Shown here piece by piece: positions 13,746 to 20,511 of a stretch of DNA of 64,000 bases. The stretch comes from Saprospiraceae bacterium (lineage in GTDB: Bacteria; Bacteroidota; Bacteroidia; Chitinophagales; Saprospiraceae). Both the position numbers and the translations under genes were made by a program. Positions within the stretch are counted from its first letter, which is position 1, and each line of letters begins with the position of its first letter. Location: positions 62,001 to 126,000 of the forward strand of contig JAHDFP010000007.1 in the NCBI GenBank assembly GCA_020628095.1. Direction: 5' to 3'. Under the pieces are notes generated by a model that was given only the letters and a program-made list of their open reading frames with translations, was not told the DNA's origin and did not search any database.

Positions 13746-14271
13746 TCAATGCGACTTCCACGCCCCAAAATCATTCACGCTACGCCACAGGTGATGCGTA
13801 TGACCACCGTAATTTTCACATTCGATCATATCGTGGTTATTTTTGATGCGATAGTAATGTGCACCGTTGTAAGCTGTGTTCCCCATATACCAATACTTAG
13901 TATCAGCAGAGAACAAATTGTCTCCCCTGATAGAAATATATTCTTTAGTGAAGTAACCGAGATAGGAGGTAATGAGTTGGTTATATTGAGATAATAAGTT
14001 AGGGGTTAGCTTGCTGATGTAGATCCCCTCGTCTGACGCCCAAAAGGTATCGCAATAAGTTTCGCCTAGCATGTTCTCTGGTAGTTTCCCATCGGCATAA
14101 GCCACAGACTTTTGCCAAAGAGTCATGGCATCAATTAATTCTCCTGCTATCGTTTCTTCCTCGTAGATGAATGCCATGCCGTTTCTATCCTCGTCTGAGT
14201 CTACCACCTGAGGATTAGATCCGATAACCGTACCACAAAATTCAAGGAGAAGTAAAAAACTTCTAAACCAT
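13746..14271 (-). pseudogene. Secreted protein with DUF3500-like C-terminus, start frameshifted
   Basis: The frame that ends at 13746 is open without a stop up to TAA just beyond 14271, but its first usable start is GTG 14207, after what reads as a signal peptide (RSFLLLLEFCGTVIGSNP). An ATG at 14271-14269 lies one base out of frame: ATGGTTTAGAAG would read M-V-R-S if one T of the TTT (14265-14267) were removed. The C-terminus HYYRIKNNHDMIECENYGGH and THHLWRSVNDFG resembles the end of DUF3500 proteins, which are usually much longer. So this is either a frameshifted gene, a consensus error, or a short form begun at GTG 14207 without export signal. Confidence 0.5.
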
Positions 14272-14323: not shown

Positions 14324-14331
14324 TACATTTG
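14324..14331 (+). promoter_or_regulatory. -7 promoter element of the DUF4856-imelysin operon
   Basis: TACATTTG matches TAnnTTTG, 43 bases before the ATG at 14374. A TTG start at 14329 lies inside this element and is therefore not used. Confidence 0.6.
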
Positions 14332-14373
14332 CTCCTAAGTAGAATTAATCTAAATAAAAATAACCTAGAGGAC

Positions 14374-15576
14374 ATGGTAAGAAGCACATTATTTCTTCTA
14401 GCATCCATAATGCTGATCATCTCTTGCTCAGAAGAAGATATTACGAATATCGAAAACCCTTTAAGTTATGAATTCACGCGTAACGGAGTATCGACGGTTT
14501 CCTTTTCTGGTCAAACCGAAAGAATTGCTATGGCAACGGAACTTATCACTGCAATGAAGGATTTTGATGTGTCAGATGTTGTCATGCTTGAGATGTTCGC
14601 TAATCAGACAGCAACTGGCAATGATGCCAATCCCTTCTCTGAAGCTGGCCTTAATGCCTCCTCTAAAAGTATCAAATCAAAAGTTGCGGCGTCTCAGGAT
14701 TTCTTTTCTTCTAATTCTGTAGAATCCTCAGAAATCAAAGCAGACTTCGAGACATGGATAAGAGCGCAAGTGTCTGAGGTCTTCCCTAACAAGGATGTAC
14801 TGGCCGAAGCCGGAGTGGCAGGTCAGATTGCTGACGGCTCATCAGTCCGATATATCAACGGTGGTGGTCTGGAGTATAATCAAGCAGTCAATAAATCTCT
14901 TATAGGTGCACTTATGGTTGACCAGATGCTCAACAACTATCTTAGCCCGGCTGTATTAGATGCTGGTGATAATATGTCTAATAATGATGCGGACATTGTT
15001 GCGGAAGATAAGTCTTATACGACAATGGAACACAAATGGGATGAGGCATTCGGCTACCTATTTGGTGCGCCTGGAGCTGACTTCGCTAATCCGTTAAATA
15101 CGCTAGGCAGCGATAGCTTCCTTAACAAATACCTGAGTCGAGTAGATGAAGATGATGACTTCAATGGTATCGCATCGGAAATCTACGAAGCTCTTAAACT
15201 GGGAAGGGCCGCGATTGTCGCGAAGGACTATGACGTCAGAGATAAGCAAGCCGAGATCATCAGAGAAAAAGTATCACAAGTCATTGCCGTAAGGGCGGTC
15301 TATTATCTCCAACAAGGTAAACGAGCTCTACAGGATGGCAACCTCGGTGTGGCTTTCCATGACTTATCAGAAGGATTTGGTTTTGTCTATAGCCTGAGAT
15401 TTTTGAGAAAGCCTAACAGTTCTGATTCTTATTTCTCAAAATCAGAAGTGGATGGATTCGTCAATCAATTAACAACTGGTAATGGATTTTGGGATATAAG
15501 CTCAGATACATTAGATGAGATGTCCGAGGACATAGCGGAAAAATTTGATTTTACAGTAGAACAAGCGGGCAGCTAA
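14374..15576 (+). CDS. DUF4856 domain lipoprotein, first gene of an uptake operon
   Basis: A 400-residue lipoprotein; the N-terminus MVRSTLFLLASIMLIISCSE is a lipoprotein signal with Cys near residue 18. The mature protein matches the DUF4856 pattern: YEFTRNGVSTVSFSGQTERI at the start, then a mainly helical domain with EHKWDEAFGYLFGAP and GRAAIVAKDYDVRDKQ. DUF4856 proteins of Bacteroidota are often encoded beside imelysins, and the helical fold may be imelysin-like; that link is inference. The gene is 12 bases upstream of the imelysin gene. It probably works at the outer membrane or in the periplasm in metal binding. Confidence 0.85.
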   Translation: MVRSTLFLLASIMLIISCSEEDITNIENPLSYEFTRNGVSTVSFSGQTERIAMATELITAMKDFDVSDVVMLEMFANQTATGNDANPFSEAGLNASSKSIKSKVAASQDFFSSNSVESSEIKADFETWIRAQVSEVFPNKDVLAEAGVAGQIADGSSVRYINGGGLEYNQAVNKSLIGALMVDQMLNNYLSPAVLDAGDNMSNNDADIVAEDKSYTTMEHKWDEAFGYLFGAPGADFANPLNTLGSDSFLNKYLSRVDEDDDFNGIASEIYEALKLGRAAIVAKDYDVRDKQAEIIREKVSQVIAVRAVYYLQQGKRALQDGNLGVAFHDLSEGFGFVYSLRFLRKPNSSDSYFSKSEVDGFVNQLTTGNGFWDISSDTLDEMSEDIAEKFDFTVEQAGS

Positions 15577-15588
15577 AAAACATATACC

Positions 15589-16698
15589 ATGTATCAAAAG
15601 ATAAGCATAATCATATTACTCATAGTAACAACATTGTCTTGTAACGATACAGACCCTATCTCTGCCATCGACCGAGTGGATAGTTTTGATAGATCAGAGA
15701 TGTTGAGTTTTTGGGCAGATGAGATAATTATACCAGCTTATATGGCTTACGCCAACGACTTGTCTGAGATGGACGAAACAGCCAAGACATTTTTCGCTGA
15801 CCCCAGTGCATCGAATTTAGAAAAACTAAGAGAAAGTTGGCTTGAGGCTTATATATCCTGGCAATCCGTTTCTCTATTTGAAATCGGAAAAGCTGAAGAA
15901 ATTGGACTGCATAACTACACTAATATCTACCCTACTAATATAGAACTTATCCATTCTAATATTAGCAATAATAATTACAACCTTATACTACCATCTAACT
16001 TTGCAGCGCAAGGCTTTCCTGCATTAGATTATCTATTATATGGCATAGAAGACACAGAAGAAGGAATCGTAAGCACATTATCTAAAGAAGACGTACGCAC
16101 TTACGCTATTAGTCTTATAGAAAGACTGTACAGCATCACTACAGAAGTCCTCGATCATTGGACAGAGAGTTATAGATCAGAATTTGTAGCTAATGATGGA
16201 TCATCAGGAACTGCTTCTGTAGACAAGGTGGTAAATGATTTTTTATTCTTTTACGAAAAATATTTGCGTGCTGCTAAAATCGGAATTCCAGCAGGTAAGT
16301 TCTCAGGATCTAAAAGCAGTCGTCACGTCGAAGGCTTCTATTCTGAAAAATATTCTAAGTTATTATTCCAACGAGCTTTTACATCAGTTAAAGATTTTTT
16401 CAATGGTATATCTTATGATGGTCAGCGTCGTGGTACAAGTATTAAACAATATCTTGATCAGATACAAAACATAAGCAACTCTGATATAGATTACTCTGGC
16501 AATATTATCTCGCAATGGAATGTTGCTCAGTCTGCCGCCGATGCGCTTGATTCTAATTTTAAGACCCAAGTGGAAGAAGACAATACTAAAATGCTCGCGG
16601 TCTATGACGAATTACAGAAAGCCATCGTATTACTCAAAGTCGATATGATGCAAGCTCTCAATATACAAGTTGATTTTGTAGATGCTGATGGTGACTAA
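15589..16698 (+). CDS. Imelysin family lipoprotein
   Basis: A 369-residue lipoprotein (signal MYQKISIIILLIVTTLSC). It carries imelysin (peptidase M75-like) landmarks: LRESWLEAYISWQSVSLFEIG, then the NFAAQGFPALDYLLYG motif, and FLFFYEKYLRAAKIGIPAGK. Imelysins are iron-regulated surface or periplasmic proteins thought to bind iron or haem; peptidase activity is doubtful. The stop TAA overlaps the ATG of the next gene by one base, so translation is probably coupled. Confidence 0.9.
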   Translation: MYQKISIIILLIVTTLSCNDTDPISAIDRVDSFDRSEMLSFWADEIIIPAYMAYANDLSEMDETAKTFFADPSASNLEKLRESWLEAYISWQSVSLFEIGKAEEIGLHNYTNIYPTNIELIHSNISNNNYNLILPSNFAAQGFPALDYLLYGIEDTEEGIVSTLSKEDVRTYAISLIERLYSITTEVLDHWTESYRSEFVANDGSSGTASVDKVVNDFLFFYEKYLRAAKIGIPAGKFSGSKSSRHVEGFYSEKYSKLLFQRAFTSVKDFFNGISYDGQRRGTSIKQYLDQIQNISNSDIDYSGNIISQWNVAQSAADALDSNFKTQVEEDNTKMLAVYDELQKAIVLLKVDMMQALNIQVDFVDADGD

Positions 16699-18047
16699 TG
16701 AAACACTATTGGCCTTCATATATAAATAAGACAACGAAAGCTGCCCCCTTGGCAGCTTTTCGTTTTTTATTTGGCTTATTGATGCTCATCAGTCTTATCC
16801 GATTTTGGTATTATGGCTGGATAGAAAAGTTATACATTCTTCCCACCTTTCATTTTCATTATTATGGTTTTGATTGGGTGACTGTACCTGGACCGTGGAC
16901 CTACTTGCTATTTTTTGTTTGTGGCTTATCATCTTTTTCATTCGCGATAGGTTATAAGTATCGTTTATCCATTATCATTTTCTTTCTGAGTTTCACCTAT
17001 ATAGAATTGATGGATAAGACGACATATCTTAACCATTACTATCTTGTCTCTTTGCTTTCCTTTATACTGATCTGGATTCCAGCACATGCGCACTTTTCTG
17101 TAGATGCCTACAAGCACAAAGGGCTTGCAAATGAATATATCCCAAGATGGAGTCTCGACGCCTTGCGCCTGATGATTGCCATCGTCTACATATATGCCGG
17201 TCTAGCCAAGCTCAATTCTGATTGGATGATAGACGCGCTTCCGCTAAGTATATGGTTAAGAGCCAAAGTAGATTTGCCTATCATCGGTTCATTAATGGAT
17301 GAGCAGTGGTTACATTATTTGTTTAGCTGGGGAGGAGCAATTTATGATCTTTTCATTGTATTCTTTTTGATATGCTCACGCACTAGGATATACGCATTTG
17401 CGACCATGTTATTTTTTCATATCATGACACGCCTATTATTTCCAATAGGTATGTTTCCATATATTATGATTGCGGCGAGCCTATTATTTTTTAGTGCATC
17501 ATTTCATACACGATTCTTATCGGGTCTTTCAAAAATTCTATTAATACCTTATGACGTATTTTGTAATGGTCTTACTTATAGAAGACATATAAACTTTGAT
17601 AGGTATGCGCCCTATATATTAATTCCATTTTTCCTAGTTCAAATTCTATTCCCACTAAGGTGTCACCTATATCCTGGGAATCTATTCTGGACAGAACAGG
17701 GTTATCGTTTTTCTTGGCGCGTTATGCTCATGGAAAAAACTGGATATGCTAATTTCAAAGTGGTCGATAGCCAAAGCGGAAAACACTTCTATGTTCAGAA
17801 CGAGGATTTCTTGACCTCCTTTCAGCAAAAGCAAATGTCAACTCAGGCGGATTTCATAATTGAGTATGCACATTACTTGGGAGAGCATTTCAAAAGTCAA
17901 GGTCATCAGAACATACAGATATTTGTAGAGAGCTACGCTTCTCTTAATGGCAGAAAAAGTCAACCTTACATAGATCCTGATGTTGATTTATTGACTGTAA
18001 AAAACAGTTTGGCTCATAAAAAATATATCCTGCCGCTACATGAATAA
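16698..18047 (+). CDS. HTTM domain membrane protein (gamma-carboxylase-like)
   Basis: A 449-residue polytopic protein of the HTTM family, related to vitamin K-dependent gamma-carboxylase. The N-terminal part holds several spans (FRFLFGLLMLISLIRFWYYG, TYLLFFVCGLSS, LRLMIAIVYIYAGLAKLNSD) and the C-terminal 150 residues form a soluble domain. It overlaps imelysin by 1 base and the receptor by 8 bases. HTTM proteins with imelysin neighbours recur in Bacteroidota; the reaction is not known. In this operon it may modify or support the two lipoproteins, which is inference. Confidence 0.88.
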   Translation: MKHYWPSYINKTTKAAPLAAFRFLFGLLMLISLIRFWYYGWIEKLYILPTFHFHYYGFDWVTVPGPWTYLLFFVCGLSSFSFAIGYKYRLSIIIFFLSFTYIELMDKTTYLNHYYLVSLLSFILIWIPAHAHFSVDAYKHKGLANEYIPRWSLDALRLMIAIVYIYAGLAKLNSDWMIDALPLSIWLRAKVDLPIIGSLMDEQWLHYLFSWGGAIYDLFIVFFLICSRTRIYAFATMLFFHIMTRLLFPIGMFPYIMIAASLLFFSASFHTRFLSGLSKILLIPYDVFCNGLTYRRHINFDRYAPYILIPFFLVQILFPLRCHLYPGNLFWTEQGYRFSWRVMLMEKTGYANFKVVDSQSGKHFYVQNEDFLTSFQQKQMSTQADFIIEYAHYLGEHFKSQGHQNIQIFVESYASLNGRKSQPYIDPDVDLLTVKNSLAHKKYILPLHE

Positions 18048-20511
18048 TAAGACCACTATACTGATATTATTCTATTTCCTTATCTCCCTGAGTATCAATG
18101 CACAGATCAATGGCATTATAAGAGATACAAAAACACAGGAAGGTATAGCAGAAGCAGAGATTATAGATGTTACAAGTGGTATGACTTCCACCACTAATCA
18201 AAAAGGGCAATTCTCTCTTGACACAGAACCTATAATTGGTCAGGAACTAATTCTTTTCGCAGAGGGGTATAATTTAAAAACGGTAGTCCTAGATTCTTTT
18301 TCTAATAATTATAGATATGGTCTCGAACCACTGGAGATACAACTTGCGGATCTCAATATTACGAGTCGCAAAAAAGAAGTTTTCGGAACAAGAAAACTAA
18401 AAGATATCGAAGGTACTTCCATCTTTGCTGGAAAGAAATCTGAGGTTGTTCTTATTGATCTGGTGAATGGAAATAAGGCTGCAAATGTAGGAAGACAAAT
18501 GTATGCCGAAATAACGGGACTGAACATATACGAAGGCTCCGATGGCGGAGTGCAACTTAATATAGGCGGTAGAGGTCTTGACCCAAATCGAACGTCTAAT
18601 TTCAATACACGCCAAAATGGTTATGATATCAGCGCTGATGTCCTTGGCTACCCAGAAAACTATTACACTCCACCATCAGAGTCCATAGAAGAAATAAAAA
18701 TATTGCGTGGTGCAAGTTCTTTGCAATATGGAACTCAGTTCGGGGGATTAGTGGATTTTAAAATAAGACGTATCCCTCGTTATAGAACTTGGGATTTCAG
18801 ACTTAGACAAACAGTGGGTTCCTATTGTTTTCATAATACATATAGCTCTATAGGTTACAATGCTGGCAAGTGGTCTACAGACGTTTTTTATAATTACAAA
18901 TCAGGGAACGGATACAGAGATAACAGCGATTTCTCAGCTCATAACGCATTCGTGTCAATGAGATATGACATATCAGATAATACACAGATTAGCACAGAGC
19001 TAACTTACTTTAATTATTTGGCGCAACAAGCAGGAGGACTTACGGATAGACAATTTGCTGAGACACCTCGACTAAGTACAAGAGAAAGAAATTGGTTCGG
19101 AGTGGATTGGCTGTTATATAATATCAAACTACTTCATTCTTTCAATAGCACTAACAAAATAGAGATTAGTTTATTTGGGCTTGATGCCCAACGCAAATCA
19201 GTAGGATTCCGAGGAGATCCATCTATACTAAATGAGAATCCGATTACCGGTCTGGACGAGGTAGATGCTAATGGAAATTATACTAATCCAAGAGACCTCA
19301 TAGTAGGAGATTTTAAGAATCTGGGTGTAGAGCTGCGATACTTAAAGGAACATAATCTAGTAAGTAAAAAATCAATTCTATTAGCAGGGGTAAAATATTA
19401 CAATGCTAATAACAAATCTCAACAAGGACCAGGTAGCCTAGAAGCAGATTCGAACTTTGAATTACAAACTAACGCTTTCCCTGATTATGCAAATCAATCC
19501 AACTTTGAATTTCCTAACCTGAATATAGCCGTCTTTGGAGAAAACATCTTTTATATCAAAGACAAGCTATCCATTACTCCAGGTTTTAGAATAGAGCGCA
19601 TTAAGACAAGGAGTCTGGGAAACTACCAACAGGTCGTTTTTGATTTAGCAAGAAACCCGATTGCTAATGAACGCTTTTACGAAGAGAGAGAACTAAGTCG
19701 CAACTTTATATTACTCGGACTAGGTATAGATTACAAAATCAAAGACAAGTTAAAATACCGATTCAATATTTCTGAGAACTATAGATCTGTCACGTTCAGC
19801 GATATCAGAGTTGTTAACCCAAGTTTTGTTATTGATGAGGATATCACAGACGAAAAAGGATACACAATAGAGACAGGTATAAGCGGTCAGTTAGATAAAG
19901 TAATATCTTTCGACATTAACCTATATAGCATTTTATACAATAATAGAATTGGGATCGTATTAGATGATCGGGCCAATAGAGTCAGGACCAATATCGGTAA
20001 CGCCATCATCTCCGGAACTGAATCCTTACTCAATTATATGCCTATAAATATTATCAGAAATAATAACGTGAAATATCGATTAACAACTTTCCTCAATACA
20101 GCTTTCACTTACTCACGTTATCTTGATGTACAATCTAATAATGTATCGGGTAATAAGGTAGAATTCATTCCCTCCGCCAATATCAAATCAGGCTTATCAT
20201 TCAGCATAGATAATTTTAAATTATCATTTCAGCATACCTATTTATCACAACAATATAGCGACGCCCAAAATAGCTTAGCTAGTAATAATGAAGATTTCCG
20301 AAGTGGTATCATAGGAGAAATTCCAGCCTATCAAATAGTCGATTTCTCTATCCAATACAAATGGAAATCCATACAAATAGATGCAGGAATAAATAATTTG
20401 ATGGATGAAAATTATTTTACGAGGAGGGCCACAGGATATCCAGGACCAGGAATCATACCATCGGATGGTCGATCTTTTTTTGTAACCCTTGGCTACATCT
20501 TTAAAGAGTAA
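18040..20511 (+). CDS. TonB-dependent receptor, FecA-like
   Basis: An 823-residue outer-membrane receptor. Order: signal peptide (to about residue 22), carboxypeptidase-regulatory-like domain (INGIIRDTKTQEGIAEAEI onward to about 105), plug domain (NVGRQMYAEITGLNIYEGSD ... IKILRGASSLQYGTQFGGL) and a 22-strand barrel ending FFVTLGYIFKE. The near-terminal RRATGYPGPGIIPSDGRSF is characteristic of FecA-type ferric-dicitrate receptors. With DUF4856, imelysin and HTTM upstream in one operon, iron-complex or other metal uptake is the most likely role; the exact ligand is unknown. Confidence 0.92.
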   Translation: MNNKTTILILFYFLISLSINAQINGIIRDTKTQEGIAEAEIIDVTSGMTSTTNQKGQFSLDTEPIIGQELILFAEGYNLKTVVLDSFSNNYRYGLEPLEIQLADLNITSRKKEVFGTRKLKDIEGTSIFAGKKSEVVLIDLVNGNKAANVGRQMYAEITGLNIYEGSDGGVQLNIGGRGLDPNRTSNFNTRQNGYDISADVLGYPENYYTPPSESIEEIKILRGASSLQYGTQFGGLVDFKIRRIPRYRTWDFRLRQTVGSYCFHNTYSSIGYNAGKWSTDVFYNYKSGNGYRDNSDFSAHNAFVSMRYDISDNTQISTELTYFNYLAQQAGGLTDRQFAETPRLSTRERNWFGVDWLLYNIKLLHSFNSTNKIEISLFGLDAQRKSVGFRGDPSILNENPITGLDEVDANGNYTNPRDLIVGDFKNLGVELRYLKEHNLVSKKSILLAGVKYYNANNKSQQGPGSLEADSNFELQTNAFPDYANQSNFEFPNLNIAVFGENIFYIKDKLSITPGFRIERIKTRSLGNYQQVVFDLARNPIANERFYEERELSRNFILLGLGIDYKIKDKLKYRFNISENYRSVTFSDIRVVNPSFVIDEDITDEKGYTIETGISGQLDKVISFDINLYSILYNNRIGIVLDDRANRVRTNIGNAIISGTESLLNYMPINIIRNNNVKYRLTTFLNTAFTYSRYLDVQSNNVSGNKVEFIPSANIKSGLSFSIDNFKLSFQHTYLSQQYSDAQNSLASNNEDFRSGIIGEIPAYQIVDFSIQYKWKSIQIDAGINNLMDENYFTRRATGYPGPGIIPSDGRSFFVTLGYIFKE

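Follow-up and report, generated by a model that had tools for sequence, protein, structure and literature searches.

We analysed a 64,000-nucleotide stretch (hereafter, the window) of contig JAHDFP010000007.1 from a Saprospiraceae bacterium, whose genome comprises 4.2 Mb in 33 contigs, and focus here on an operon that places a relative of the animal vitamin K-dependent gamma-carboxylase (VKGC) among two lipoproteins and an outer-membrane receptor. The plus strand from 14374 to 20511 is filled by four genes. These encode a DUF4856 lipoprotein (14374–15576; PF16148, 469 bits, above the Pfam cut-off), with lipobox Cys 18 followed by SEED; an imelysin (M75) lipoprotein of a VKGC-linked subtype (15589–16698; PF09375, 94 bits, cut-off 23.5), in which GxPxxD replaces GxHxxE; an HTTM/VKGC-like membrane protein (16698–18047; PF05090, 270 bits, and the VKGC_lumenal_dom PF22777, 194 bits, each with a cut-off of 27.7); and a FecA-like TonB-dependent receptor (18040–20511; plug PF07715, 28.3 bits, cut-off 23.9), whose CarboxypepD_reg-like N-terminus scores below its cut-off. 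The first two genes are 12 bp apart, the imelysin stop and the HTTM ATG share one base (TAATG, 16696–16700), and the HTTM and receptor open reading frames (ORFs) overlap by 8 bases. The original prediction of a tightly spaced or overlapping four-gene operon with two lipoproteins, and of direct contacts at the imelysin-HTTM-receptor junctions, is thus borne out by Pfam and by the coordinates.

That prediction had placed the first start at 14324, which we revise. A -7-like promoter element, TACATTTG, lies at 14324–14331 on the plus strand; it matches TAnnTTTG, which we take to be the Bacteroidetes -7 consensus, and no clear -33 element was seen there. It is followed at 14337–14355, on the same strand, by a Fur-box-like site, AAGTAGAATTAATCTAAAT, with three mismatches to the Fur box predicted for Riemerella, ATTTAGAATTATTCTAAAT. 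Since these two elements occupy the region of the earlier start, we rejected the TTG at 14329 as a start codon and regard the ATG at 14374, which gives a normal lipoprotein signal, as the likely beginning of the DUF4856 gene.

Conservation of the gene set

Conservation of the gene neighbourhood had been proposed as a check on the operon, and the four genes travel together widely. We compared 80 named loci, the best 80 of 559 relatives, drawn from Saprospiraceae, Flavobacteriaceae, Roseivirga, Balneola and others; this sample is therefore biased toward close relatives. Saprospiraceae metagenome-assembled genomes rank highest among the window's named relatives, in line with its probable membership of that family. 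The order DUF4856-imelysin-VKGC-receptor on one strand is found in 74 of the 80. Four of the six exceptions lie at contig ends, and the other two, both from Roseivirga (L121 and L129), carry DUF4856 and VKGC only. Within these loci the HTTM and receptor genes overlap in 65/77 cases (an over-estimate, as ORFs were taken from their first start), the imelysin and HTTM genes in 10/76, and the DUF4856 and imelysin genes in 0/75. For the window's own family, all four genes stand on one strand in 50 of 64 operon-type loci, a hand-chosen set that includes the window (our sets of 80 family loci, 40 and 9 were also picked from longer lists), and VKGC's steadiest neighbour is the receptor, which is present in 61 of these 64. 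Outside this family but within the phylum, the complete set stands on one strand in 26/29 operon-type loci compared.

Among 392 genomes of the phylum, operon-type VKGC occurs in 72 and DUF4856 in 60, and 55 genomes contain the two together (Fisher p 9e-46, without correction for relatedness). Seventeen genomes have VKGC and no DUF4856 by Pfam: a custom profile recovers a diverged DUF4856 at the locus in 11 and none in three, two of the remaining loci lie at contig ends, and one falls outside the comparison. Conversely, 39 genomes lacking VKGC contain DUF4856 in only 2 cases and imelysin in 4. The gene set is retained in the genome when the locus splits. All six genomes without an imelysin at the VKGC locus encode one elsewhere, and DUF4856 is found elsewhere by Pfam in four of the six genomes that lack it at the locus. 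Another, more distant VKGC clade of the window's family (17 loci, 35–40% identity) keeps the catalytic Lys, His and Asn, and none of the three partners nor any uniform neighbour was found at its 17 loci.

Some loci depart from this arrangement. In Roseivirga, L295 consists of DUF4856-imelysin-receptor and L296 of imelysin-receptor, both without VKGC, which is encoded elsewhere with a DUF4856 gene (L121, L129). At L279 and L280, in genomes without VKGC, DUF4856 adjoins a TonB receptor, which suggests a basic receptor-lipoprotein pair. In one further locus a heme oxygenase gene is inserted between DUF4856 and imelysin (L238:8732–9334, minus strand).

Features of the four proteins

Residues 8–434 of the window's VKGC align to residues 54–491 of human VKGC with an E value of 2e-41 (phmmer). 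This match, which extends to the active site, led us to reject the view that the HTTM protein is merely a remote look-alike. Using the residue roles given for the human enzyme in passages of PMC12589487, we counted conservation over 167 sequences of the operon type. The equivalents of Asn159, His160, Lys218, Trp223, Phe286, Phe294, Phe299, Ala214 and Met402 are invariant (167/167); in the window, the Glu-binding pair Asn159-His160 corresponds to Asn112-His113 (codons at 17031–17036, plus strand), and the catalytic base Lys218 to Lys171 (17208–17210, plus strand). Gly259 is kept in 166/167 and Asp153 in 165/167, while position 395 is Tyr in 140 and Phe in 27. The equivalent of Asn158 is Leu in all 167, and those of Gly258 and Val254 vary. 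The original prediction stood to fall if the HTTM active site lacked the residues needed for carboxylation; the catalytic residues are intact throughout. Like human GGCX, the window protein combines an HTTM domain with a lumenal domain and keeps Lys218, His160, Asn159 and the quinone-ring pocket, except for Met401. Judging from the alignment, most of the quinone and Glu sites is conserved, whereas the regions with which the animal enzyme reads the propeptide are altered or absent. The window's genome encodes MenA; menaquinone is therefore probably at hand. On these grounds, VKGC-type catalysis is probably active.

The imelysin model (mean pLDDT, the predicted local distance difference test, 93) superimposes on ICMP (7xrx) with a Z of 32.4 and a root-mean-square deviation of 2.4 over 320 residues, and on EfeO and EfeM with a Z of about 20, which supports a double four-helix-bundle M75 fold for the predicted structure. 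Passages of PMC3143127 describe classical imelysins as carrying GxHxxE and a haem peroxidase partner, and link imelysins of known structure to iron. The window protein shares the fold, the lipoprotein nature and the iron-regulated kin of the imelysin/EfeO superfamily (ICMP, IrpA, PIBO, EfeM), but it has GFPALD instead of the canonical GxHxxE of ICMP and IrpA, a terminal D-x-D tail, and VKGC as a partner in place of a di-haem peroxidase. At the His and Glu positions of the motif, VKGC-linked imelysins have P in 123/152 and D in 133/152, whereas classical-type imelysins keep H and E in 7/7 (four from VKGC-less genomes and three from the mixed loci L073, L080 and L081). The tail, encoded in the window as DADGD at 16681–16695 (plus strand; sequence and alignment), ends in Asp in 151/152 VKGC-linked imelysins and reads DGD in 138/152, and is absent from the seven classical proteins. 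It is also kept by five VKGC-distant imelysins (no VKGC within 1.5 kb on either side) of VKGC-positive genomes and is missing from two strongly classical copies; therefore, the tail tracks the presence of VKGC in the genome, and we regard it as a lead for recognition or metal binding. By these sequence features, the operon-type imelysins form a distinct subtype.

The mixed loci L073, L080 and L081 carry two imelysins, one per subtype, beside VKGC and the receptor; in L073 and L080 they are separated by a gene for the di-haem peroxidase DHOR, and in L081 by an ORF of similar size. A DHOR gene stands beside VKGC-linked imelysins in the four loci examined (L073, L080, L097 and L267), and next to the imelysin in both VKGC-less genomes examined, of four. 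In the window, Pfam detected no haem-peroxidase domain among the nine proteins scanned, which belong to the operon and its surroundings.

The DUF4856 protein is predicted to be helical (mean pLDDT 93.6). Its conserved E219-H220-x-x-D223-E224 and H329-x-x-S332-E333 could form a metal site. In five VKGC-less DUF4856 proteins, too few to be more than suggestive, His329 is lost in four and Glu333 in two. Residues 216–339 weakly resemble the FEA1-related lipoprotein family NF038033, as do 21 of the 46 members of the DUF4856 alignment (E <=0.01, best E 1e-9), but the window protein scores far below that family's cut-off (18.7 bits vs 250) and has no solved relative by sequence, a search of the PDB returning one chance-level match only. 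In a fold search, the best hit was a catenin domain (Z 8.0, within the helical-bundle range), with imelysin 3n8u at Z 4.5. Acidic residues just after the lipobox Cys act as a signal for surface export. At least two such residues occur within five positions of that Cys in 131/150 DUF4856 proteins and 95/152 imelysins, which fits surface export of both lipoproteins.

A FecA-like receptor had been predicted, and the plug domain together with FecA as the nearest solved structure (E 2e-11) upholds that description in a broad sense. The protein differs from FecA in its additional CarboxypepD_reg-like N-terminus and lies far under the FecA equivalog cut-off (NF041676, 87 bits vs 1100). Its best NCBIfam match is TonB-siderophor, at 107 bits and below the cut-off of 223.5.

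Iron response and a possible role for carboxylation

The core of the Fur-box-like site (14340–14355) is the sole exact match to TAGANTTANTCTAAAT in the window's genome. Allowing one mismatch or fewer, the pattern is not enriched genome-wide (9 places vs 7 for a reversed control), so the exact match alone is special. Across relatives, a scan with the 19-bp consensus from PMC5609570 (Riemerella anatipestifer) found a Fur box with <=4 mismatches in 129 of 148 distinct operon upstream regions vs 19 of 609 control ORFs at the same loci, the controls being mechanically called ORFs of at least 250 aa, some of them perhaps not genes. Table 4 of the same paper lists four consecutive R. anatipestifer tags annotated as a TonB receptor (RAYM_09779), a "vitamin K-dependent gamma-carboxylase" (RAYM_09784), an imelysin (RAYM_09789) and a hypothetical protein (RAYM_09794). 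By annotation, this gene order is the same as in the window; the comparison is one of annotation rather than sequence, and the fourth gene, named only as hypothetical, presumably encodes DUF4856, judging by its position. According to the values given there, iron restriction raises these four genes (ratios of 2.11, 2.64, 3.07 and 2.41, respectively), and so does loss of fur in iron-rich medium (1.90, 1.39, 1.93 and 1.36). The promoter of this gene set is absent from the cases of electrophoretic mobility shift assay named in the passages of PMC5609570 that we drew on. The original prediction had called for a response to metal: an iron response is on record in the same-order Riemerella set, and Fur boxes are predicted across the phylum. 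We consider it very probable, from sequence and from the Riemerella analogy, that the operon serves iron acquisition under Fur control; Fur itself would then bind here. Iron, and not calcium, is the metal indicated.

On this basis, we propose the following mechanism. Under iron shortage, the cell would make the two lipoproteins, the TonB-dependent receptor and the inner-membrane VKGC-type enzyme. Using menaquinol (vitamin K2), O2 and CO2, the enzyme would most likely gamma-carboxylate one or a few Glu residues of the lipoproteins in the periplasm, and each carboxylated Glu would provide a stronger Fe(III)-binding site. At the outer membrane, the lipoproteins might then take up iron or a ferric complex, which they would hand to the receptor. 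Taken as a whole, this reading of a Fur-repressed outer-membrane iron module whose VKGC carboxylates lipoprotein Glu seems to us evenly balanced between right and wrong, and, taken by itself, the proposal that one of the operon's lipoproteins is carboxylated at a Glu likewise stands midway in our judgement.

Several observations weigh against it. In Riemerella, low iron still induces the four genes in the fur mutant (2.70, 2.77, 2.92 and 3.07 for RAYM_09779, RAYM_09784, RAYM_09789 and RAYM_09794; PMC5609570), and therefore Fur may not be the only control in that species. In the enzyme, Lys217 is replaced by Ala (165/167), Met401 by Val (167/167) and Asn290 by Thr (167/167); the first two replacements, both present in the window, set it apart from human GGCX, as does its place in a bacterial operon with iron genes. 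The human protein has 758 aa with a C-terminal propeptide/arch extension, whereas the window protein, of 449 aa, ends near human residue 500, so most of the propeptide-binding and arch regions are absent. By the features that define animal GGCX, it thus falls short, with neither PBD-2 nor arch and with Ala at the coupling residue Lys217. A search of the window's genome found no VKOR; a mammal-like vitamin K cycle therefore seems unavailable, and any epoxide recycling that is needed must take another route. No Glu-rich stretch like that of proteins with gamma-carboxyglutamate (Gla) is present in either lipoprotein, and no alignment column pattern marks a Gla site in the imelysin or in DUF4856. 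The only columns with >90% Glu are Glu223 and Glu248 of the imelysin and Glu167 and Glu333 of DUF4856; Glu333 and Glu248 are invariant in operon copies, and Glu248 is also kept in 4/4 imelysins of VKGC-less genomes. Finally, in two genomes with an operon-type VKGC (G275 and G304), neither Pfam nor the locus reveals a DUF4856, and in G304 the VKGC gene stands alone. The idea that the HTTM protein modifies lipoprotein Glu to bind metal, already raised in the original prediction, which suggested checks under iron or calcium limitation, is therefore favoured by the gene set, the iron signal and the active site, and opposed by the missing Glu cluster and VKOR; iron as the metal gains from the Fur box and from Riemerella, and calcium finds no such backing.

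Four other explanations deserve consideration. The operon might serve iron uptake while the substrate of the enzyme is not protein Glu but a small molecule, such as a quinone or a siderophore-like ligand. The truncated lumenal domain without a propeptide claw, the intact quinone pocket, the lack of a VKOR in the genome and of a Gla-like Glu cluster would all suit such a role. A Leptospira homologue was reportedly described in 2005 with a proposed role other than protein carboxylation; a phrase search for that paper returned nothing. Yet the residues of the Glu pocket (the equivalents of Asn159, His160 and Tyr/Phe395) are as strictly kept as those of the quinone pocket, and the operon's four genes include no further enzyme gene, so we think this explanation unlikely. 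It is also rather improbable, in our view, that the enzyme carboxylates the TonB receptor or a protein encoded elsewhere, with the lipoproteins as mere uptake partners. The receptor's constancy beside VKGC and the occasional placement of the lipoprotein genes elsewhere would agree with this, but the tail and motif of the imelysin subtype occur in VKGC genomes even when the imelysin is encoded away from VKGC, and the two Roseivirga genomes keep VKGC with DUF4856 alone while the receptor follows an imelysin elsewhere.

A catalytically silent HTTM protein, serving as a membrane anchor or assembly factor, would accord with the fact that we know of no activity for the operon-type VKGC clade; with seven catalytic and pocket residues invariant in 167/167 sequences, we hold this to be very unlikely. 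Least probable of all is a module for calcium or another metal. Gla binds calcium in animals, and DxDGD resembles calcium-binding motifs, but the Fur-box-like site upstream, the iron response on record for Riemerella, the imelysin and FecA relatives, and the heme oxygenase gene inserted in L238 all speak for iron.

Returning to the carboxylation of lipoproteins, a more detailed version can be put forward only tentatively: Bacteroidota would make Gla by means of an iron-induced, menaquinol-driven carboxylase acting on the special imelysin, on DUF4856 or on both, and the malonate-like Fe(III) ligand would replace the lost GxHxxE. The D-G-D C-terminus might then act as a recognition tag instead of the animal propeptide, and a translation-sensitive attenuator might hold the enzyme below its substrate. 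If true, vitamin-K chemistry would count as an ancient means of scavenging iron, far removed from the roles it plays in animals. The operon, widespread with its iron-response signature and present also in cultured marine Flavobacteriaceae, offers bacterial VKGC homologues a concrete context, likely substrates and an inducing condition, iron starvation. Were Gla to be detected, it would add a new protein modification to bacterial metal uptake and might represent an ancestral use of the chemistry of vitamin K. Each component falls within a known family; the way they are combined, like the imelysin subtype and the intra-operon RNA element that this analysis defines, was not found described in the literature searched. 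In that literature, which includes few subscription journals, no VKGC-imelysin-receptor association appeared beyond the table rows of PMC5609570, and none was found in passages of PMC7567364, PMC13066512, PMC9478572, PMC5561996 and PMC9146348.

A terminator-like hairpin early in the VKGC gene

The first codons of the window's VKGC gene contain a terminator-like hairpin (16730–16773, plus strand), with a stem-loop at 16736–16760 and a T-rich tail at 16762–16773; its minimum free energy is -20.2 (z -5.0). We evaluated this stretch in 149 operon-type genes, leaving out those without the P-L-x-x-F-R start motif. In the 87 genes of the AA-P type, it folds more stably than its synonymous recodings do (mean z -2.15, with 71% within the best 5%), compared with a mean z of -0.04 for 891 control windows in operon-type VKGC genes; the 62 genes not of the AA-P type have no hairpin there (mean z -0.26). 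At three pairs of third codon positions, Watson-Crick complementarity holds in 61, 60 and 62 of 82 genes vs 32–34 expected, whereas of six wrong pairings four were near or below expectation and two slightly above (36 vs 29 and 20 vs 16). This wobble covariation persists when protein identity is limited to <80, <70 and <65% (66, 40 and 23 genes).

Strict terminator-like sites occur at 42/154 imelysin-VKGC junctions and 16/140 DUF4856-imelysin junctions, against 0/146 VKGC-receptor junctions, 2/143 positions after the receptor and 2/462 internal windows. As sites are so rare after the receptor, the scan may overlook the terminators that these organisms ordinarily use. In some lineages, L146, L155, L158 and L180 among the examples, a hairpin of other sequence lies in the intergenic gap, and Rfam returned nothing at gathering scores between 13600 and 20700. 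The hairpin is probably an intra-operon attenuator and is likely to let the lipoprotein mRNA exceed that of the enzyme and receptor. Though a separate element, it suits an enzyme required at lower levels than its substrates. On the other side of the operon promoter, a divergent ORF with a GTG start (13746–14207, minus strand) covers only positions 145–296 of the 297-position DUF3500 profile and looks like a truncated gene.

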